Below, piece after piece: positions 2,816 through 13,605 of a stretch of DNA of 22,414 bases; within the stretch, counting starts at the first letter, position 1; each line of letters begins with the position of its first letter. This DNA is from a virus, in the IMG/VR virus record IMGVR_UViG_3300025849_000249, positions 1 through 22,414 of that record; one strand, written 5' to 3'. The position numbers were made by a program, and so were the translations under genes. The notes under the pieces were generated by a model that worked only from the letters and a program-made list of their open reading frames with translations, ran no database searches and was not told the DNA's origin.

Positions 2816-3293
2816 CTCACAAAAATAACCACTTACCTTCTTGAAAGCAAACAAATTCTTTAAATTTTATGAAAAAAATTTTGGTGTTGAGAAGATTGAA
2901 ATCGATTTGAGAGAAAACTGCTTATGGTGATACCCACACCTAAAAATCAATAAATTGCCGTCAAAGCCATGGTAATCGATAGGGGAGGGGATGTACTTAA
3001 CATAATGAATGTTATATAACAAATATTTAACGGTTGTTAGGTCGTTTGTTTGTGTTCCTTTTGTGAATATTTCTGTTTGTTCTAATACACTAAACCCTAT
3101 CAAACCAATTAAAAGTAAATCAATCAAACCAATTACAAACCAAAACAAACCAAAGAACAAATTAAACTCAATCAATCAATCAATGCTATTTAAACGCGTT
3201 CTAATCAATTCAATTACTTTAATAGTGCAATCATATCAAACACAAACTAAACGTCTTATACAGCCTTATAATAGATAACACCCGTATAGGCAT
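2816..3293. other. Intergenic region with simple repeats
   Basis: This 480-base stretch has no convincing gene. It contains a low-complexity AACCAA-rich segment (about 3087-3184), a 13-base direct repeat ATCAAACCAATTA at 3099-3111 and 3123-3135, a (CAAT)4 tract at 3169-3184, and GGGGAGGGG at 2982-2990. A leftward frame at 3175-2867 is open but has no ATG and starts only at a TTG inside the CAAT tract. The promoter for the leftward pair at 2815-2096 probably lies here but was not pinned down. Confidence 0.5.
3099..3184. repeat. Direct repeat and (CAAT)4 microsatellite
   Basis: ATCAAACCAATTA occurs at 3099-3111 and again at 3123-3135. The same AACCAA-rich texture continues to an uninterrupted CAATCAATCAATCAAT tract at 3169-3184. 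Such tetranucleotide tracts can change length by slippage. No coding frame depends clearly on this one. Confidence 0.6.
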
Positions 3294-3320
3294 AAAAAAA
3301 GCCACCTTAAAAGGTAGCTT
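3294..3320 (-). terminator. Rho-independent terminator of the 5493-3340 operon
   Basis: On the minus strand AGCTACCTT-TT-AAGGTGGCT forms a nine-pair stem with one G-T wobble (3319 to 3300), followed at once by six T (3299 to 3294). It lies 20 bases beyond the stop of the last gene of the leftward accessory operon. The opposite orientation lacks a comparable T run, so termination is expected for leftward transcription only. Confidence 0.85.
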
Positions 3321-3339
3321 AATTAATTAGCTTGTTTAT

Positions 3340-3525
3340 TTATTTAATAATTATTTTATTATTAACATTTAATCCGTAAACCATTCTAATTATTATTTCA
3401 TTCGATTGATTAAGATGATTAATTGACCAATGTTTACAATTATCTAAGCTTTCAAACTCTTTGATAAATATATAACCATTGTTGTAAATCATATATTTCA
3501 ATTTGTTATTTGTTTCTTGTTTCAT
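3340..3525 (-). CDS. Small protein of unknown function, last in operon
   Basis: This is a 61-residue protein, MKQETNNKLKYMIY..., rich in N, I and K with alternating hydrophobic residues suggesting a small alpha/beta fold. Its start overlaps the stop of the upstream gene (ATGA), and a strong terminator follows its stop by 20 bases. No family is recognised. Confidence 0.6.
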   Translation of the reverse strand: MKQETNNKLKYMIYNNGYIFIKEFESLDNCKHWSINHLNQSNEIIIRMVYGLNVNNKIIIK

Positions 3526-3878
3526 GTTTTTTTAATTAATGTAAATATTAATATTAAATCATTATCAGTCATTTCATCCAATGACACAACATTTGTACCT
3601 TTCTTTATTTCGATGTAGTTTAGACCGTTGTCACTGTATTGAACACCTTTGTAAACAGTTACTTTGACCATACCAAAACGAGCGCTATTGATATATTTAA
3701 TACCAATAAAAGATCCGTCTTTTTGTTCATTAAAATCTAGATGAAAGATTAAAGTATCGTCATTTGATTGGTCAAAGCTTATTTCTGTTCGCCTTGTTAA
3801 TGCTTCTTTGCTTTCTTTCTTTAATAAATAGAAAGCCAGCAAAGCGCATAAAACAAATAAGGATAATAAAGCTATCAT
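3522..3878 (-). CDS. Membrane-anchored small protein
   Basis: This is a 118-residue protein with a hydrophobic segment at residues 2-19 (IALLSLFVLCALLAFYLL) followed by KKESK. That pattern fits an uncleaved signal anchor. The remainder is a soluble domain with beta-rich texture and no recognised motif. The start touches the stop of the cysteine-rich protein upstream and the stop overlaps the next start, so it belongs to the same translationally coupled operon. Function is unknown; possibilities include an envelope or superinfection-exclusion role, which is only a guess from topology. Confidence 0.65.
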   Translation of the reverse strand: MIALLSLFVLCALLAFYLLKKESKEALTRRTEISFDQSNDDTLIFHLDFNEQKDGSFIGIKYINSARFGMVKVTVYKGVQYSDNGLNYIEIKKGTNVVSLDEMTDNDLILIFTLIKKT

Positions 3879-4629: not shown

Positions 4630-4734
4630 CTATTTTTTACGTTTTTTATAATAATTCTTATTATTGTTTTCCTCTTTACGTGCTAAATATTCAAGCGTAA
4701 TGATGAATATTGCAAATAGTATATATAATATCAT
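4630..4734 (-). CDS. Very small membrane protein with basic tail
   Basis: A 34-residue gene, MILYILFAIFIITLEYLARKE..., has one membrane span at residues 1-18 and a strongly basic lysine- and asparagine-rich tail. Its ATG overlaps the stop of the preceding small membrane gene (ATGA). The overlap and the consistent span-plus-basic-tail design support translation. The long frame to 4995 that contains it is probably accidental. Confidence 0.5.
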   Translation of the reverse strand: MILYILFAIFIITLEYLARKEENNNKNYYKKRKK

Positions 4735-4862
4735 AATGACCCGTTTAAAAGACCGTAAATGAGCGCAGCGCATAGGGTTACAATCAATGTGCAACCGATG
4801 GTAAAACAAACCACATTTGTAATGGTTTCTATCTTGTTTGAAGTAAATAATAATTCTTTCAT
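4731..4862 (-). CDS. Very small membrane protein
   Basis: This is a 43-residue gene, MKELLFTSNKIETITN..., with a hydrophobic segment at about residues 14-40 (VVCFTIGCTLIVTLCAALIYG). The stop forms an ATGA overlap with the next tiny membrane gene, making a coupled pair. It follows an 80-base leader that contains a small hairpin. Function is unknown. The overlapping pair is reminiscent of paired small membrane proteins of phages, but no family was recognised. Confidence 0.55.
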   Translation of the reverse strand: MKELLFTSNKIETITNVVCFTIGCTLIVTLCAALIYGLLNGSL

Positions 4863-4942
4863 GGTGTATAAAATTTATGTTTAAAATTTGATAAAGACAC
4901 GGCAATAAATCACCGTGTTTCGGGAATTTATCCCTCATCAGT

Positions 4943-5155
4943 TTACCTATTTCTACAATTAAACCCATCGTATAATTCCGCGTATCCATTACCATAAAAA
5001 ATATCGGGCGTATTGGATAAATTTAATTTTTTAATAATATTATTTAGCTGGTCGATATACCAAACATTATCACTTGCTTTATAATTTCGAGTCATTACTT
5101 CATTTACTGATTTTAAAATTATTGCTTTTTCCATCCGTGTTAATTCGTTTTTCAT
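4943..5155 (-). CDS. Small protein of unknown function
   Basis: This is a 70-residue protein beginning MKNELTRMEKAIIL, with a helical N-terminal half and a short aromatic C-terminal part ending YDGFNCRNR. The ATG at 5155 is used; an internal ATG at residue 8 is an alternative start. It lies 20 bases after the preceding gene. No domain is recognised. Downstream, 4903-4923 can form a small hairpin (ACACGG...CCGTGT) before the next gene. Confidence 0.55.
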   Translation of the reverse strand: MKNELTRMEKAIILKSVNEVMTRNYKASDNVWYIDQLNNIIKKLNLSNTPDIFYGNGYAELYDGFNCRNR

Positions 5156-5175: not shown

Positions 5176-5493
5176 TTAATAATTAAGTGGTTTTGCTGAA
5201 TATTCAGCGCATTTTAAAATACCTTTCTTTTCATAGCTTTCATCGTATTCAACAAAAACTATTTTATCTTTCTTAAAATATGCATATGTGCCAATATCGT
5301 TGTAATCAGTAGCGCAATATTTGCGCTCAAATCTGCAAAAGCTATCTTTTAAAAACTCTTTTTTGCTAGTTAATGTCTTATAGATGATGTCATTTTTTAA
5401 CACGTCTTGTATTTTAATTGGATATCTCATAATGCTATTAATTTTAGTATTTGCTAATTTTGTTAGTATTTCGGCACATTCGCTGCGCTCCAT
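5176..5493 (-). CDS. Protein of unknown function, first gene of the accessory operon
   Basis: This 105-residue protein has a helical N-terminus (MERSECAEILTKLAN) and a more beta-like middle with YFKKDKIVFVEYDE. It is the first gene of the leftward operon that ends at the terminator at 3320-3294, and it is adjacent to the candidate origin region. A promoter must lie in 5494-5700, but no good TAnnTTTG match was found there. No family is recognised. Confidence 0.6.
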   Translation of the reverse strand: MERSECAEILTKLANTKINSIMRYPIKIQDVLKNDIIYKTLTSKKEFLKDSFCRFERKYCATDYNDIGTYAYFKKDKIVFVEYDESYEKKGILKCAEYSAKPLNY

Positions 5494-5554
5494 ATGTAAG
5501 ATTACGAATTACATAATTAATATGCAACTATTGCAGCCAACAATTAAGAAAAAG

Positions 5555-5704
5555 TTTTCCACAATTGAAATATATATTTAATGTGGATAACTCTTTATAA
5601 ATCAATGACATGTAAAAGAACGTGCGCACGTGATAAGAAATAAAAATAACAATAACAAATATTTTTTTAAAAAGTTTTCAACAATGACATATTAGTTATC
5701 AACA
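5555..5704. promoter_or_regulatory. Cluster of DnaA-box-like sites
   Basis: TGTGGATAA at 5582-5590 is the exact complement of the consensus DnaA box TTATCCACA. Nearby are TTTTCCACA (5555-5563), TTTTCAACA (5675-5683) and TTATCAACA (5696-5704), which differ from the consensus by one or two bases. Two of these sit in a 17-base direct repeat, AAAAAGTTTTC(C/A)ACAAT, at 5549-5565 and 5669-5685. Binding by host DnaA is inferred. Confidence 0.5.
5620..5631. promoter_or_regulatory. 12-base GC-rich palindrome
   Basis: ACGTGCGCACGT is a perfect 12-base palindrome in a stretch that is otherwise almost all A and T. It lies between the DnaA-like sites and upstream of the leftward accessory operon (first start at 5493), so it may be an operator or origin element. 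No protein can be assigned. Confidence 0.45.
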
Positions 5705-5730
5705 TCTGCCAAAACCCAAATCTCAGAATA

Positions 5731-5978
5731 AATTTGGTCTAAAAATTTGGTCTGAACTTAATCTGAATTTGGTCTACAATTTGGTCTGAATATTTATAAT
5801 AAATATTTTATAATAAAAATTATTTTTAAAAAAAATAAATAATTATTTTAAATAAATAAGAAATAAAACTGAGTGATTTGTTGAGGATATTCTGAGCAAA
5901 AACATCTCATTATTTAGTGGAGATTACCAGCAGATGTGTATGGAATTATCCCTTAGAATGTGGCTATAAATTTGGTCT
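5731..5978 (+). repeat. Iteron-like direct repeats AATTTGGTCT
   Basis: Exact copies of AATTTGGTCT lie at 5731-5740, 5744-5753, 5766-5775, 5778-5787 and 5969-5978, all in the same orientation. The first four are spaced 13, 22 and 12 bases apart; the AT tract follows. The core TTGGTCT also recurs through the coding regions of the window, so the iterons share their sequence with a genome-wide motif. Confidence 0.7.
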
Positions 5979-6045
5979 AAATTTCCTACAGAATACACGG
6001 AGAATTGTGTCTAGAAATTAATTAGATTTATTTTTAAAATAATAA

Positions 6046-6069
6046 AGGGAAACCAATTACGATTTCCCT
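6046..6069 (-). terminator. Probable terminator of the long replication operon
   Basis: On the minus strand AGGGAAA and TTTCCCT form a seven-pair stem around a ten-base loop (6069 to 6046), followed by TTATTATTTT. It is about 150 bases beyond the stop of the last gene of the leftward operon (6221). The T tract is interrupted by A, so the call is less certain than the one at 3294-3320. Confidence 0.55.
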
Positions 6070-6220
6070 CTAAATATTCAATGCATTTGTGTAGCATTAT
6101 TGTCTTAAAATTTTAGTGGTTTTTGTAGAGGTATTCCTTAATTCGGAAACCCGTTTGAAAGTGAGGTAAAAATATTCTCATTTAGAAAATGAACCACGGT
6201 ATCCCCCCACCGTATCCCTC

Positions 6221-6448
6221 TTAGTACTGAAGGATGTTCTCGCAATCTAAATTCATTGGATAAGGTATTCCATAGGTCTTTGTATACCTACCGTACTTAT
6301 GCCAACAATCCAATGAGTCTAGATGGTCTATGTGCTTGTCATATAGCTTGTCGTGATCATAACAGAACACACCCCTAATGGTACGACAGAACATGATTAA
6401 GTTCTTGCCATACCTTCTCTTATCTATTAAGAAATAATTCTTAATCAT
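6221..6448 (-). CDS. Small protein of unknown function
   Basis: This is a 75-residue basic, aromatic- and histidine-rich protein, MIKNYFLIDKRRYGKN..., with HIDHLDSLDCWHKYGRYTK near the C-terminus. The frame is open to 6478, but the ATG at 6448 is chosen because it overlaps the upstream stop (ATGATTAA), as is usual in this operon. It is the last gene before the terminator. No family is recognised. Confidence 0.55.
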   Translation of the reverse strand: MIKNYFLIDKRRYGKNLIMFCRTIRGVFCYDHDKLYDKHIDHLDSLDCWHKYGRYTKTYGIPYPMNLDCENILQY

Positions 6449-6698
6449 AATTGTATCTATTATCAATGAAATAATCATTAGCAGCCTTCATCTCATCTTC
6501 AGCATCAGCTAGGTTTCTTATAGCCTCCATTGCATTCTTATAGAAGTCATCAGTAGAGTGATCACCAATACCAACGGGATTATTAGACATTATATCTAAG
6601 GTAACCAATGCCTTATTTTTCTTTGCGTTTGATTCCGCAATTAACATATGATACAATCTACGATTAAATTGTTTCTTGTCGTTCTTTTTCTCTTTCAT
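6441..6698 (-). CDS. Conserved small phage protein (NPVGIGDH motif)
   Basis: This is an 85-residue protein with a basic N-terminus, then NNPVGIGDHS (about 39-48) and a helix LADAEDEMKAANDYF. The combination N-P-V-G-[IV]-G-[DE]-H followed by an acidic A-x-A-E-D helix recurs in small hypothetical proteins of many tailed phages, including T4-like ones, by my recollection of the family. Function there is not established. It overlaps its upstream neighbour by 35 bases and its downstream neighbour by 8. Confidence 0.65.
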   Translation of the reverse strand: MKEKKNDKKQFNRRLYHMLIAESNAKKNKALVTLDIMSNNPVGIGDHSTDDFYKNAMEAIRNLADAEDEMKAANDYFIDNRYNYD

Positions 6699-6996
6699 TT
6701 GATTTTTTAATTTTATAATTGTTTCTAAATCTTGAGTCTCTAGAAGAACACCAATCTAAAACATTATTGGAGAACACCCAATCATAATTAACCGTAATAA
6801 CGTCTCTAGAGTAACTATTAACAATGCTATCAACTTGCCTAGAACTAGGATATTTACTCTTATCCACCCTTCTAAGCTTATGAATGCGATTTTGGTTATC
6901 GGTTCTACACTTAACAGAGCAATATTTCCTTGCTCTACCATTTATTCCCTCTTCCTTACTTTTTTCAAAGTCTTTATTGCAATTTGCACAAATCAT
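6664..6996 (-). CDS. Zinc-finger protein
   Basis: This 110-residue basic protein begins with a four-cysteine finger: C3-x2-C6 (ICANCNKDF) and C26-x3-C30 (KYCSVKC). That spacing is typical of small MYM- or DUF2116-like treble-clef fingers. The remainder is rich in R, K and S and ends in a charged helix. Its ATG overlaps the stop of a 21-codon frame upstream. Nucleic-acid binding is likely from composition; nothing more specific can be said. Confidence 0.6.
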   Translation of the reverse strand: MICANCNKDFEKSKEEGINGRARKYCSVKCRTDNQNRIHKLRRVDKSKYPSSRQVDSIVNSYSRDVITVNYDWVFSNNVLDWCSSRDSRFRNNYKIKKSNEREKERQETI

Positions 6997-7090: not shown

Positions 7091-7459
7091 CTAAAAACCA
7101 TGTCTGACAAATCCAAAATTATCTTTAAAAATATTATATTTTGATTTATAATTCTTTTTTACTGAAAAATGATTAATACCCTCAACTGCCTCAATGGGTA
7201 GCACATACCAAGAATTAAATATTTTAAAATAAATAGCAAACCAATCCACCTCATCTTTTGTGTAATCAATTTTAACATGACATTGATTGTCTTTCTTTTT
7301 CAGATACTCTGTAGACTTCACTTGGACGCGATGTAAGACATTATCTACATCAATGATTAAATCATACCTTGTGTAATGTGAAAATGGCTTAGAAACGATG
7401 TATCCCTTCTCCATGCAATGCGTAGCGAATAAAGACTCGGAATACTCTCCTAATTTCAT
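7091..7459 (-). CDS. PD-(D/E)XK endonuclease-like protein
   Basis: This 122-residue protein matches the short PD-(D/E)XK family in which the last motif is Q-V-K: GEYSE near the N-terminus (E5, E8), YDLIID with D33, then RVQVKST with Q46 and K48. Relatives resemble archaeal Holliday junction resolvases and intron-encoded endonucleases, and fold as a minimal restriction-enzyme core. In this operon, with ERF, exonuclease and helicase genes, a junction-resolving or nicking role is plausible but inferred. Its start overlaps the stop of the upstream glycosyltransferase as ATGA. All active-site positions appear intact for the QVK subtype. Confidence 0.7.
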   Translation of the reverse strand: MKLGEYSESLFATHCMEKGYIVSKPFSHYTRYDLIIDVDNVLHRVQVKSTEYLKKKDNQCHVKIDYTKDEVDWFAIYFKIFNSWYVLPIEAVEGINHFSVKKNYKSKYNIFKDNFGFVRHGF

Positions 7460-8502
7460 AAAATACTTAGTCTTGCTTGATTTTCTTTATCAATCCTATA
7501 CATATCTCTAACATACTCACCCAATTCCTTTCCAAGGGATTCTCTTAGAGATTTATCAAGGCTTAGTTCTAGTATTGATTCCACCCATTCATCTCCATTT
7601 GAGCATAAATCAATGTTTGCTCCCGTTCTTGAGAATGTTACCATATCTGATCCAATAAATGGTAGCCATTTTGCACCAGCCTCTAGCACTTTTAACTCGC
7701 TTTTGCATCTGTTGAAATCATTATCAAGTAATGGGGCAATAACTATGTCCATTTGATCAAAGAATCTAGCATATTGATTTACTCTAACACCACCCGAAAT
7801 AAATACGTTTTTGTTTTTACCATCGTCAGTAAATATTCCTAATTGATGATGCCACACTTTTTTAGCATAAGGAGTAACAAAGTCAGCACCCGATAATTGG
7901 AGAACCATATTTCTACGAAAAATCTTATTATTATTAAGCCTTCTAAATGGTATTTTCATTTGGTCTAAATCACCATAATGAGTTGTGCTACCAGCATAGC
8001 CAATTACCGTTTTATTTCTGTTTTTGGATTTAAGTTTCCTATCTGCCCATTGTGGGTCGTTTAGATCAATAGCATTCTTAGCTACAATCACGGGTTTGTT
8101 GGTGAAATGATCCTCTATTATTGCTTTTAAATATTCTGTACTAGTCCATACATAATCAGCAAAGGCTATGTTCATTAGGAAGTTGTTCTTCCACTCATTA
8201 TAATCTACATCATCCCTCCAAACAATAGGATGGTTTTCGGGCAGTTCCCATAGATCATCAACATCAATAATCACCTTAATGCCTTCTGCTTTTACCTTCT
8301 CAATAAGACCAAAATCAGCATCACCATATCCAATACTTCTATTGTAAACAAAATAGTCATACCCATCAATGACTACATCATTAGTGAAATTCTCTATAAA
8401 GTCGCAATGGTGTCCTTCCTTCTGTAGATATTCAAAAGGCTTTTTTAATCTGTGATAACTTATAGCATTATACTCAGACTTAACGCAAACTAAAAATCGC
8501 AT
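7456..8502 (-). CDS. Glycosyltransferase, GT-B fold, group 1/GT4-like
   Basis: This 348-residue protein resembles phage GT-B glycosyltransferases. The N-terminal half includes SYHRLKKP and a VIIDVDDLWELPENHP segment typical of this phage group. The C-terminal nucleotide-sugar-binding half has VIGYAGSTTHYGDL (about 168-181), then DIVIAPLLDN and SELKVLEAGA (about 276-285), where the glutamate corresponds to the conserved GT4 position binding the donor. Donor and acceptor are unknown: DNA bases, tail proteins and cell-surface glycans are all possible. It begins 23 bases inside a tiny membrane gene and is coupled to the downstream nuclease by ATGA. Confidence 0.75.
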   Translation of the reverse strand: MRFLVCVKSEYNAISYHRLKKPFEYLQKEGHHCDFIENFTNDVVIDGYDYFVYNRSIGYGDADFGLIEKVKAEGIKVIIDVDDLWELPENHPIVWRDDVDYNEWKNNFLMNIAFADYVWTSTEYLKAIIEDHFTNKPVIVAKNAIDLNDPQWADRKLKSKNRNKTVIGYAGSTTHYGDLDQMKIPFRRLNNNKIFRRNMVLQLSGADFVTPYAKKVWHHQLGIFTDDGKNKNVFISGGVRVNQYARFFDQMDIVIAPLLDNDFNRCKSELKVLEAGAKWLPFIGSDMVTFSRTGANIDLCSNGDEWVESILELSLDKSLRESLGKELGEYVRDMYRIDKENQARLSIL

Positions 8503-10013: not shown

Positions 10014-11036
10014 TTAAAATAATTCATTCTTATGCGTTTTTTTAATTGAGTCTTCAAAGATATCGATTCCATTTAAAAAGTATCTGTTTTTGGAGAGATT
10101 ATAATCCAATTTTATATATCCATTCTTAAAAACATCGAAATCCTTTACCTTTTGAGTCTTTATCATTACACTTTTATTTTCCTCTTCACTCTTTCTGTAA
10201 GGTCGCCAAACAGAAGAAACCGTGTCAGAGCCATCTGTTATTGATCCACCACCTTTTATCTTATACATATCGGGTTCGGGGTAATTACCCGTCTCGTCAA
10301 TTTGCGGAGTTAGCTGATGATAAACCACATGATGGCTTACATTAAATTGCTTGGCAAACACCTCTTGTCTCTTAATAAACGATGTCAGATATTGTAAATC
10401 ATTCATTGTAGTAGGCTTACTCACCTTTAAGAAAGGATCAATAACCGTTATGTTTACTTTATTAATCTTTATTAACGTCTTAAACTGATTCTCAATGCTT
10501 TCTATGTCGTGATTTGAGGGGTATACATAAAACAATCTATCATTGAATTGCTCTATCATCCTATCACATTTCACTTTAGTGGAGTACTTTGGATCGCACC
10601 CCAGCATTGTCTTAACCCAATCCTTAACAAACTTATGTCTAGGATAGTTCTCGGGTGAGAATACGGCTACTTTGGCATTTGGGTCTTGTAGTAGCTTGAT
10701 TAGAATTAAGAAATACAACCAAGAAGACTTTCCTTCATTTGAATATCCCGTCCAACTATTTACCCATCCATATTTCCACTTAAACATTCTATCATATTCC
10801 TTGATATGTGTTGTCTCAGCATTGCTACCTTGATTCAGCCAATCCCAAAAATCAGATTTATCATCATTAACACCATCTAAGTCCGTTAATGAATTACTTT
10901 CTACATATTGAGAAAGACTCCTCTTCATTGATTGAATCGTCATTACAATCTCCTTTTTGGTCTTCTGAGGTAGATTGGTCTTTATCACCACCACATTGTG
11001 GAGATGATCTATATTCTCTAGAAAGCTATCAATCAT
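10014..11036 (-). CDS. DnaB/Twinkle-like replicative helicase (RecA-fold ATPase)
   Basis: This 340-residue ATPase carries Walker A GYSNEGKSS (97-105), with K103 and S104, an SPENYPRHK segment (127-135) typical of Twinkle and phage DnaB-like helicases, and Walker B ITVIDPF with D200. It also has a sensor-like VVYHQLTP (237-244) and the GGGSITDGSD loop (262-271). Family members form hexameric rings that unwind DNA at the phage fork. There is no N-terminal zinc finger or TOPRIM primase domain; the first 80 residues are helical and acidic, so a separate primase (host or outside this window) is implied. It overlaps the upstream small gene by four bases and is followed at once by the transglycosylase. 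Confidence 0.85.
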   Translation of the reverse strand: MIDSFLENIDHLHNVVVIKTNLPQKTKKEIVMTIQSMKRSLSQYVESNSLTDLDGVNDDKSDFWDWLNQGSNAETTHIKEYDRMFKWKYGWVNSWTGYSNEGKSSWLYFLILIKLLQDPNAKVAVFSPENYPRHKFVKDWVKTMLGCDPKYSTKVKCDRMIEQFNDRLFYVYPSNHDIESIENQFKTLIKINKVNITVIDPFLKVSKPTTMNDLQYLTSFIKRQEVFAKQFNVSHHVVYHQLTPQIDETGNYPEPDMYKIKGGGSITDGSDTVSSVWRPYRKSEEENKSVMIKTQKVKDFDVFKNGYIKLDYNLSKNRYFLNGIDIFEDSIKKTHKNELF

Positions 11037-11847: not shown

Positions 11848-11996
11848 CTAATAACCTTAAAGAATAACTCTAAGTGAAATTTCTTAAAAAAACTATCGTA
11901 GCTAATTCCTAGCAATACCTTTCCTCTAATACTCAACAAGTCCATTCCGTAGAAATCCTCATCGTTAAAATAAAATGTCAATAAATCTATTCTCAT
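11844..11996 (-). CDS. Small protein of unknown function between glycosyltransferase and HNH genes
   Basis: This 50-residue gene fills what would otherwise be a 145-base gap. It starts in an ATGA overlap with the glycosyltransferase stop (11996) and ends in an ATGA overlap with the HNH start (11844-11847). The sequence, MRIDLLTFYFNDEDFYG..., is rich in F, L and Y, with a hydrophobic basic C-terminus (FFKKFHLELFFKVIR). The two perfect junctions argue strongly for a real gene. No family is recognised. Confidence 0.7.
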   Translation of the reverse strand: MRIDLLTFYFNDEDFYGMDLLSIRGKVLLGISYDSFFKKFHLELFFKVIR

Positions 11997-12745
11997 TTGT
12001 ACACTTTGTTTAGGTTAATAATATGTTCACTTGTGTATCTATCATCCCACTTAATCAATGGTAATCCAAAATCAGATACACCATCATGGATTGCTTTACC
12101 CTTTCTTTTTTTCCATTTGGTCGAAATATCTTCTCCGTTAGGCATTCTCTCATTCAAATGATTAATATAATAATCACAAGTCTCCTCCCAATGCTCCACA
12201 GATATTCCCTTACCAAAATGCTTAACCGTTCCACCAATCATTTGTAATTGATCAATACCCAATGGAACACGATTATTAAAGTGTACTCTAGAATTTGGTC
12301 TGAATAACATTGGAATATCCCTATACTCACATCCAATATATTCTCTATCAATAAATGGTTTATCTACATCATTGGGAGTTATGTATACATCGAACAATCT
12401 AAAGAAATAACTGAAATTAGAACCCCAATTAATCTCATCAAAATAAAAATGTTCATCAGCATCAAAATACAACATCCAATCAATATCCTCCTCCTTACGC
12501 ATTGCATAATCATATAGGTCTTGCCTTTGAGTTGTCTCAAGCGTTTTGCGGACTTCTGAGCGACTTTCCCACTTATCACTTGTGATTACACGTTTAACTA
12601 GCTTATGCTCGCTTAGAATGTCTCTAGTACCGTCTGTTGAGCAATCATCGAATGCTATTACACAATCAAAATGATATGATAATCTATCTAATGTAGATTT
12701 AAGTATTACCTCTTCATTTCTAACTCTTGTTATAGCTACTTTCAT
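11993..12745 (-). CDS. Family 2 glycosyltransferase (GT-A fold)
   Basis: This 250-residue protein has the GT2 layout. The N-terminal MKVAITRVRNEE is the nucleotide-binding strand, VIAFDDCSTDGTRD (29-42) is the first aspartate motif, and WMLYFDADEHF (90-100) contains the metal-binding D95-x-D97. The C-terminal half (RPNSRVHFNNRVP, then HWEE) resembles the acceptor side of phage GT2 enzymes. It would transfer a sugar from a nucleotide sugar to an unknown acceptor. It overlaps the upstream GT4-like gene by four bases, so the two likely act in sequence. DNA modification and modification of phage or host surface are both possible. Confidence 0.8.
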   Translation of the reverse strand: MKVAITRVRNEEVILKSTLDRLSYHFDCVIAFDDCSTDGTRDILSEHKLVKRVITSDKWESRSEVRKTLETTQRQDLYDYAMRKEEDIDWMLYFDADEHFYFDEINWGSNFSYFFRLFDVYITPNDVDKPFIDREYIGCEYRDIPMLFRPNSRVHFNNRVPLGIDQLQMIGGTVKHFGKGISVEHWEETCDYYINHLNERMPNGEDISTKWKKRKGKAIHDGVSDFGLPLIKWDDRYTSEHIINLNKVYK

Positions 12746-13605
12746 TGTAATATTTGATTTACTATTTTTTTAGCATCAAAGTAATCCTCTGCTATACTTC
12801 TGTAGTAATCTGTATTTGGTCTATATAGTTTCTCAATTCCATTAAGAATTTTATCTTTATTGAATGATTTATTAAATCTCCTACCCGATAAATTGTTTCT
12901 TAGCATCTCACCTATATTCTCTCTAGTAACAATACTATCGTACTTATCACCGTTGTATCCTCTAGCATCATAAACAATAACACATCTACCACAAGCCAAT
13001 GACTCATAAGCTGATCTACCTAGACCAACGCATATGTCTGCCTCATTAAACGTATCATTGCTTATGGCTAATCTAGCATCTCTTGTTGGAGGTATGCATT
13101 CAGTTTCAAATCCCAAAGACTTTACGTTCTCTTGAGCGTTTATGTTCTGACACAATGCAAATATCTTTTGAGGTGTTTCGTTTAATTCTTTGGTAGGATA
13201 ACAAACATCCAAATCAACGGGATTTAGTATTACATCACTTTTATATCCCATCAGTAATAGATGGTATTGAATTTCATTTGAAATAGAAATGTATCTATCA
13301 GCACCTTTAATTGGTTGTTCTAAATGCGGAGCAATACCATGACACATCATAATAAGCTTTGAGTACTTAGCCTTCTCCAAGACAATCTTTACACAAGTAT
13401 TATGATTAGCAATAACCAAATCATACGTTACATTGGGAATGGTTGTGTATACTGAACCAAATCTTTGAGTCCCAACACCACCAACATCAATAGAAAAGAC
13501 ATCTACAGAATGCCCTAACTTCTTTAAAGTAGAGTAAACCGTAAATGTCCAATTCTCAGAACCACCAAAAGTATTTAAATGATTATTTGTTAATAATATT
13601 TTCAT
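12742..13605 (-). CDS. Glycosyltransferase, GT-B fold, GT4-like
   Basis: This 287-residue protein begins MKILLTNNHLNTFGGSE, the glycine-rich acceptor-side loop of GT4 enzymes. HGIAPHL and DRYISISNEIQYHL follow. The donor-binding region has ICVGLGRSAYESLACGRCVIVYD (about 191-213), with the conserved E in AYESLACG. At 287 residues it is somewhat shorter than usual GT4 proteins, but both half-domains are recognisable. It overlaps the RecB-like nuclease upstream by four bases and the GT2 gene downstream by four. Acceptor unknown. Confidence 0.75.
   Translation of the reverse strand: MKILLTNNHLNTFGGSENWTFTVYSTLKKLGHSVDVFSIDVGGVGTQRFGSVYTTIPNVTYDLVIANHNTCVKIVLEKAKYSKLIMMCHGIAPHLEQPIKGADRYISISNEIQYHLLLMGYKSDVILNPVDLDVCYPTKELNETPQKIFALCQNINAQENVKSLGFETECIPPTRDARLAISNDTFNEADICVGLGRSAYESLACGRCVIVYDARGYNGDKYDSIVTRENIGEMLRNNLSGRRFNKSFNKDKILNGIEKLYRPNTDYYRSIAEDYFDAKKIVNQILQ

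Follow-up and report, generated by a model that had tools for sequence, protein, structure and literature searches.

Origins of iteron plasmids combine direct iterons, phased with the DNA helix, with DnaA sites and a neighbouring AT-rich region, and the origin of phage lambda, which lies inside the O gene, has iterons plus an AT-rich region, its iterons being inverted repeats that bind O dimers (PMC5043065). In phage NrS-1, a primase-polymerase reads the 8-nt sequence TTTGGTTA, which has been suggested to serve as an origin (PMC8718748, PMC7102993). The stretch analysed here, a 22,414-base virus record (the window, to whose full length all counts given for it refer), contains an intergenic desert that is very probably a theta-type phage replication origin used by host DnaA together with a putative phage iteron-binding protein. 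A sequence-only reading of this DNA had placed a candidate phage origin at 5549-5978; the anatomy of the region (its sites and their order) and its conservation in relatives support that proposal, and it is from these that we infer an origin.

The window is best explained as coming from a tailed phage with a flavobacterium-like host, that is, a marine, flavobacterial-type virus. The closest cultured relatives of its helicase belong mostly to Tenacibaculum and Flavobacterium phages, at 24-32% identity, and the nearest of these, Tenacibaculum phage JQ (32%), has no iteron array of the kind described below. Cultured-phage records searched with the window gave zero DNA matches, a plasmid collection gave a single, chance-like match of 38 bp, and an Rfam search reported nothing. 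Since cultured phages have no DNA match and only distant helicase kin, a conserved and bounded origin would make a test object for flavobacterial phage replication.

The desert occupies 727 bp (5494-6220), the length given before, and separates two minus-strand gene series. The left-hand series begins at 5493. The right-hand genes form a single long minus-strand series that terminates at 6221 and includes tail genes, ERF, a PDDEXK nuclease, glycosyltransferases, HNH, a DnaB-like helicase, lysis-type genes, PDDEXK_5 and a zinc finger; this layout bears out the earlier statement that the operon with the helicase and recombination genes ends next to the origin region. The DnaB-like helicase (340 aa; 10014-11036, minus strand) is likely to be the helicase loaded at the origin. 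A terminator-like hairpin (6043-6072, minus strand), absent from the earlier account, would stop the right-hand operon ahead of the origin. Two other observations on the proteins are recorded here. The PDDEXK_5 protein (7091-7459) is 99% identical to that of a sister-clade contig, L039, and only 64-80% identical to those of L007, L009, L010 and L022, several otherwise nearer relatives, a pattern suggestive of recent exchange of the gene. In L134 (G003), positions 3116-3532 of the minus strand encode a 138-aa phage protein that matches the C-terminal domain of RNA polymerase alpha (Pfam PF03118, E 1.9e-16).

DnaA boxes, a feature expected of an iteron-type theta origin, are present on the left of the unit. 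A DnaA-box-like site, TTTTCCACA (5555-5563, plus strand), and an exact DnaA box, TTATCCACA (5582-5590, minus strand; TGTGGATAA on the plus strand), form the left and right halves of an inverted pair, and two further DnaA-box-like sites, TTTTCAACA (5675-5683) and TTATCAACA (5696-5704), both on the plus strand, form a direct pair 21 bp apart. These four are the only TTWTCMACA sites in the whole 22.4 kb and all lie inside about 150 bp; Markov-1 simulations of the window gave a mean of 2.3 such sites, and four within 156 bp in 0 of 400 runs. The exact box and the three near matches had been picked out by the sequence-only reading, as had a 17-base direct repeat (5549-5565 and 5669-5685, 94% identical), and all stand at the positions given here. 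Each of the ten contigs in which the spacing was measured has the two boxes of the inverted pair exactly 27 bp apart, with intervening DNA that varies; a recognisable inverted pair was not found in L016, L039 or clade D. Between the two pairs lies an overlooked feature, the 12-bp, GC-rich, alternating perfect palindrome ACGTGCGCACGT (5620-5631). It is the only one of its kind in the window, where 0.15 GC-rich perfect palindromes of 12 bp would be expected in 22 kb, and it is unchanged in 15 viral stretches; in other relatives shorter or different CG-alternating tracts replace it.

The iteron array (5731-5787, plus strand) follows. Its four exact TTTGGTCT cores, at 5733, 5746, 5768 and 5780, are the four phased iterons reported earlier, and the array proves more regular than was then noted: a degenerate unit, CTTAATCT, occupies the 22-bp gap at 5757, where relatives have an intact CTTGGTCT or TTTGGTCT, and the real array therefore consists of five units spaced 13, 11, 11 and 12 bp apart. 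Direct repeats in tandem, spaced roughly one helical turn apart, are thus represented by five units (one degenerate) here and by arrays of several units in relatives. None of 500 simulated deserts packed a GC-containing 8-mer four times, without mismatch, into 60 bp. The array adjoins some 80 bases of almost pure A/T (5788-5867), again as first described, which we presume to be the unwinding element; by computation no other 80-bp segment of the window is as unstable as this tract (z 4.7). In five of six relatives (G001, G004, G005, G010 and L161) the least stable 80-bp segment likewise adjoins the array; in the sixth, G003, whose contig ends inside the tract, that segment lies away from the array. 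The single distal iteron, AATTTGGTCT (5969-5978, plus strand; core 5971-5978), also stands as reported. Its position, measured from the first iteron, is conserved at about +226 to +239 in clade A, at +170 to +179 in clade C and at +221/222 in two clade B contigs.

Relatives were found by protein and pattern scans and range from 98% DNA identity to 72% helicase protein identity. The order of elements is kept in about 20 related viral contigs, even where flanking genes differ, and iterons, DnaA boxes and AT tract all recur among them; lack of iterons in close relatives had been named in advance as grounds for abandoning the origin. In some relatives, matching DNA on either side runs out near the unit. 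G004/L010 and L020 lose homology to the window at 5535; L008/L009 are unmatched from 5858 rightwards until 6243, yet retain the distal iteron, which in L009 has the window's own offset of +238 although the DNA preceding it is unrelated. The left-hand gene is swapped among relatives while the origin unit stays. The iteron word differs by clade, while the array holds its position and its phasing of mostly 9-15 bp and the AT tract persists: clade B arrays have TTTGGTCT with TTTGGACT, clade C arrays TTTGCCCC and TTTGCTCC (the latter also being the distal iteron), and clade D arrays TTTGGACT and TTTGCCCT. A clear inverted DnaA pair is missing from clade D and from L016/L039, which makes the iterons and AT tract the more constant component of the unit. 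A three-iteron scan was run over viral contigs and genomes; outside this phage family the matching loci examined were simple tandem repeats, and L036 was a false positive in GC-rich coding DNA.

These features suggest how such an origin might work. Host DnaA would bind the inverted box pair (5555, 5582) and the direct pair (5675, 5696), and a phage initiator would bind the phased direct iterons at 5731-5787; jointly they would wrap and melt the adjoining AT tract at 5788-5867, onto which the phage DnaB-like helicase could be loaded. The distal iteron at 5969 may assist by looping or may limit firing. Among the proteins of the window that were scanned, no known Rep family was recognised, and the zinc-finger protein at 6664-6996 is a candidate initiator only (its structure model is poor, pTM 0.31). 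GC skew in the window tracks gene strand and makes no turn at the site, and in the 31-kb relative G001 it is monotonic, again with no turn there; the skew is a coding-strand effect only and uninformative as to where replication starts.

The unit is flanked by one operon's terminator-like hairpin and by the beginning of the next operon, a location that would also suit a transcription control region, in which the iterons would be operators of a phage repressor or activator for the operon from 5493, and the DnaA-like sites, together with the AT tract, parts of its promoter. DnaA can act as a transcription regulator, and given this position a promoter for the left operon is to be expected somewhere in the desert. 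We nevertheless consider this reading unlikely. No Bacteroidetes -33/-7 promoter was found in the window's unit, relatives having only scattered, chance-like matches, and sigma-70-type matches are no more numerous than in shuffles; the left-hand gene is exchanged between relatives, yet the unit remains; and an operator needs neither a peak of instability nor a fixed spacing of the DnaA pair.

Much less probable again is a site for DnaA titration or replication interference, at which the box cluster would sequester host DnaA and replication would not start: the four boxes are clustered and are the only ones in the window, but four are few for a sink, and the array and AT tract are retained in relatives without a clear inverted pair (L016, L039 and clade D). 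Slightly more remote still is a structural DNA site, for packaging (pac/cos) or otherwise, which would likewise be intergenic, conserved and built of short repeated sites; in G003, however, the terminase genes lie about 5 kb from the array, and packaging sites are not characterised by DnaA boxes or a melting tract. Operator region, DnaA sink and packaging site each explain fewer of the features than does a replication origin.

Beyond the origin, the iteron word recurs along the genome with strand polarity, a new observation that the sequence-only reading does not contain. Of all 8-mers in the window, TTTGGTCT shows the strongest over-representation, with 17 copies on the plus strand versus 0.9 expected, and one on the other strand. 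Outside the origin there are 12 plus-strand copies, starting at 1600 (1600-1607), 2794, 7043, 7959, 9119, 9383, 10956, 12294, 12815, 14741, 20777 and 22057, and one on the minus strand, at 8306, versus 0.8 expected. Whole contigs of the clade give strand counts, array included, of 15:0, 14:0, 14:1, 11:0, 11:0 and 9:0, against 0-1 for a reversed-word control. In-gene copies use all three frames and number 23 in the window, L161 and G003 taken together (L161 and G003 share a source sample and may represent pieces of related genomes), versus a mean of 5.7 and a maximum of 11 in 200 synonymous-codon shuffles. This shuffle test and the window's own count are the firmest evidence for the scatter. 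Because nearly all genes are on the minus strand, genome polarity and antisense-to-transcription polarity coincide; the window's site at 1600 lies inside a plus-strand ORF and retains the genome polarity, and in L301 one word within a plus gene shows the opposite polarity.

In clades B, C and D, TTTGGTCT has 0 plus-strand copies outside the origin versus 3.3 expected, and it is TTTGCTCY words that are scattered, with the same polarity: TTTGCTCC in clade C (12 versus 3.3), matching the array words and the distal iteron, and TTTGCTCT in clade D (15 versus 3.2), which has no match in the clade D array. In clade B, where the array is mostly TTTGGTCT and no TTTGGTCT is scattered, the enrichment of TTTGCTCY is weak, as was that of TTCGGGA, tried as a clade B word and set aside. 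The clade D mismatch and the clade B array without scatter mean that word and iteron co-vary only partially. The positions of scattered sites turn over between clades, and switching of the word at orthologous sites was not seen bar one case (20777 in the window versus L298). Inside clade A, conservation of single sites is slightly above background (best P 0.013, a weak result, the relatives not being independent). Because words and clade groupings were picked with the data in view, and because contigs of one clade are not independent of each other, raw P values overstate the case.

Most simply, the scattered words would be further binding sites for the same putative iteron-binding protein. A broader proposal, which we hold only tentatively and think rather improbable, is that an origin-binding protein reads the word both at the origin and at strand-polar sites about every 1-2 kb, that word and protein co-evolve by clade, and that the sites act in replication, for example in strand-specific helicase loading or priming on a one-directional fork. 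If the origin protein does read the scattered word, the phage would have a replication signal dispersed along its genome, and both the direction of the fork and the specificity of the initiator could then be tested from sequence. Two adjacent glycosyltransferase genes (11993-13605) are present in the scatter-bearing G004, L007, L009, L046, L161 and the window and absent in G001, G005, L016 and L039; only contigs covering the region were compared and these were among many genes looked at, so the correlation may be due to chance. An unrelated viral locus, L092, has a strand-polar 8-mer of its own (ATACGAAC/GTTCGTAT, 8:0 versus 0.12 expected), and over-represented 8-mers of this kind are therefore not unique to the present phage. 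Xanthomonas phage CP1 served as a background genome only.

To the left of the desert, at 4890-4947 on the minus strand, the leader of a small ORF contains a hammerhead-ribozyme-like element, GGTAAA-CTGATGA-GGGATAAATTCCC-GAA-ACACGG...CCGTGT-C-TTTATC. Hammerheads are known in phage intergenic regions (PMC3088659). A strict scan returned six contigs of the family, whose stems differ, and no match in 1.8 Mb of shuffled sequence; in other relatives the CTGANGA and GAAA core is retained but the stems have changed. Rfam did not report the element, and its minimum-energy fold pairs differently. A 121-aa ORF (4630-4995) overlaps this leader; it is doubtful because relatives conserve the DNA but no long open frame, and it is probably not a gene.

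How do these words and sites compare with those of described systems? TTTGGTCT and the NrS-1 sequence have TTTGGT in common, a resemblance that may be chance; NrS-1 has two copies of its sequence, one per strand. No primase-polymerase was found among the window's scanned proteins, and none was obvious in the ORF lists of G001, G003 and L161 (fragment contigs, ORFs partly scanned), so that the similarity might at most serve as a lead. Chi- and KOPS-type words are short, over-represented and strand-polar, with positions that are not conserved, and are tied to the chromosomes and enzymes of the host. TTTGGTCT is like them in being short, over-represented and strand-polar and in the turnover of its positions; it was not enriched as a host Chi in one Lutibacter genome (157 versus 200 for the reversed control), although Lutibacter may not be the host.

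In satellite phage P4, short type I iterons at ori and crr, the second set lying away from the first, are read by a phage protein, and the initiator is a single alpha primase-helicase. Short iterons and a distant second set are found here also, but no alpha primase-helicase was found in the window. Lambda ori is alike in being a phage origin with an iteron array adjoining an AT-rich region; to our knowledge, however, it lacks a DnaA-box cluster, and features of lambda-type O/P origins are not shared, the origin proposed here being intergenic and its repeats direct. Plasmid iterons are longer, about 17-22 bp, than the 8-bp cores at 11-13 bp spacing in the window, which has no recognised adjacent Rep gene and, unlike iteron plasmids, a word that recurs genome-wide. 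In its direct, helix-phased iterons, its DnaA sites and its AT-rich neighbour, the locus nonetheless resembles the iteron origins of plasmids P1, F, RK2, R6K and pSC101 (PMC5043065).
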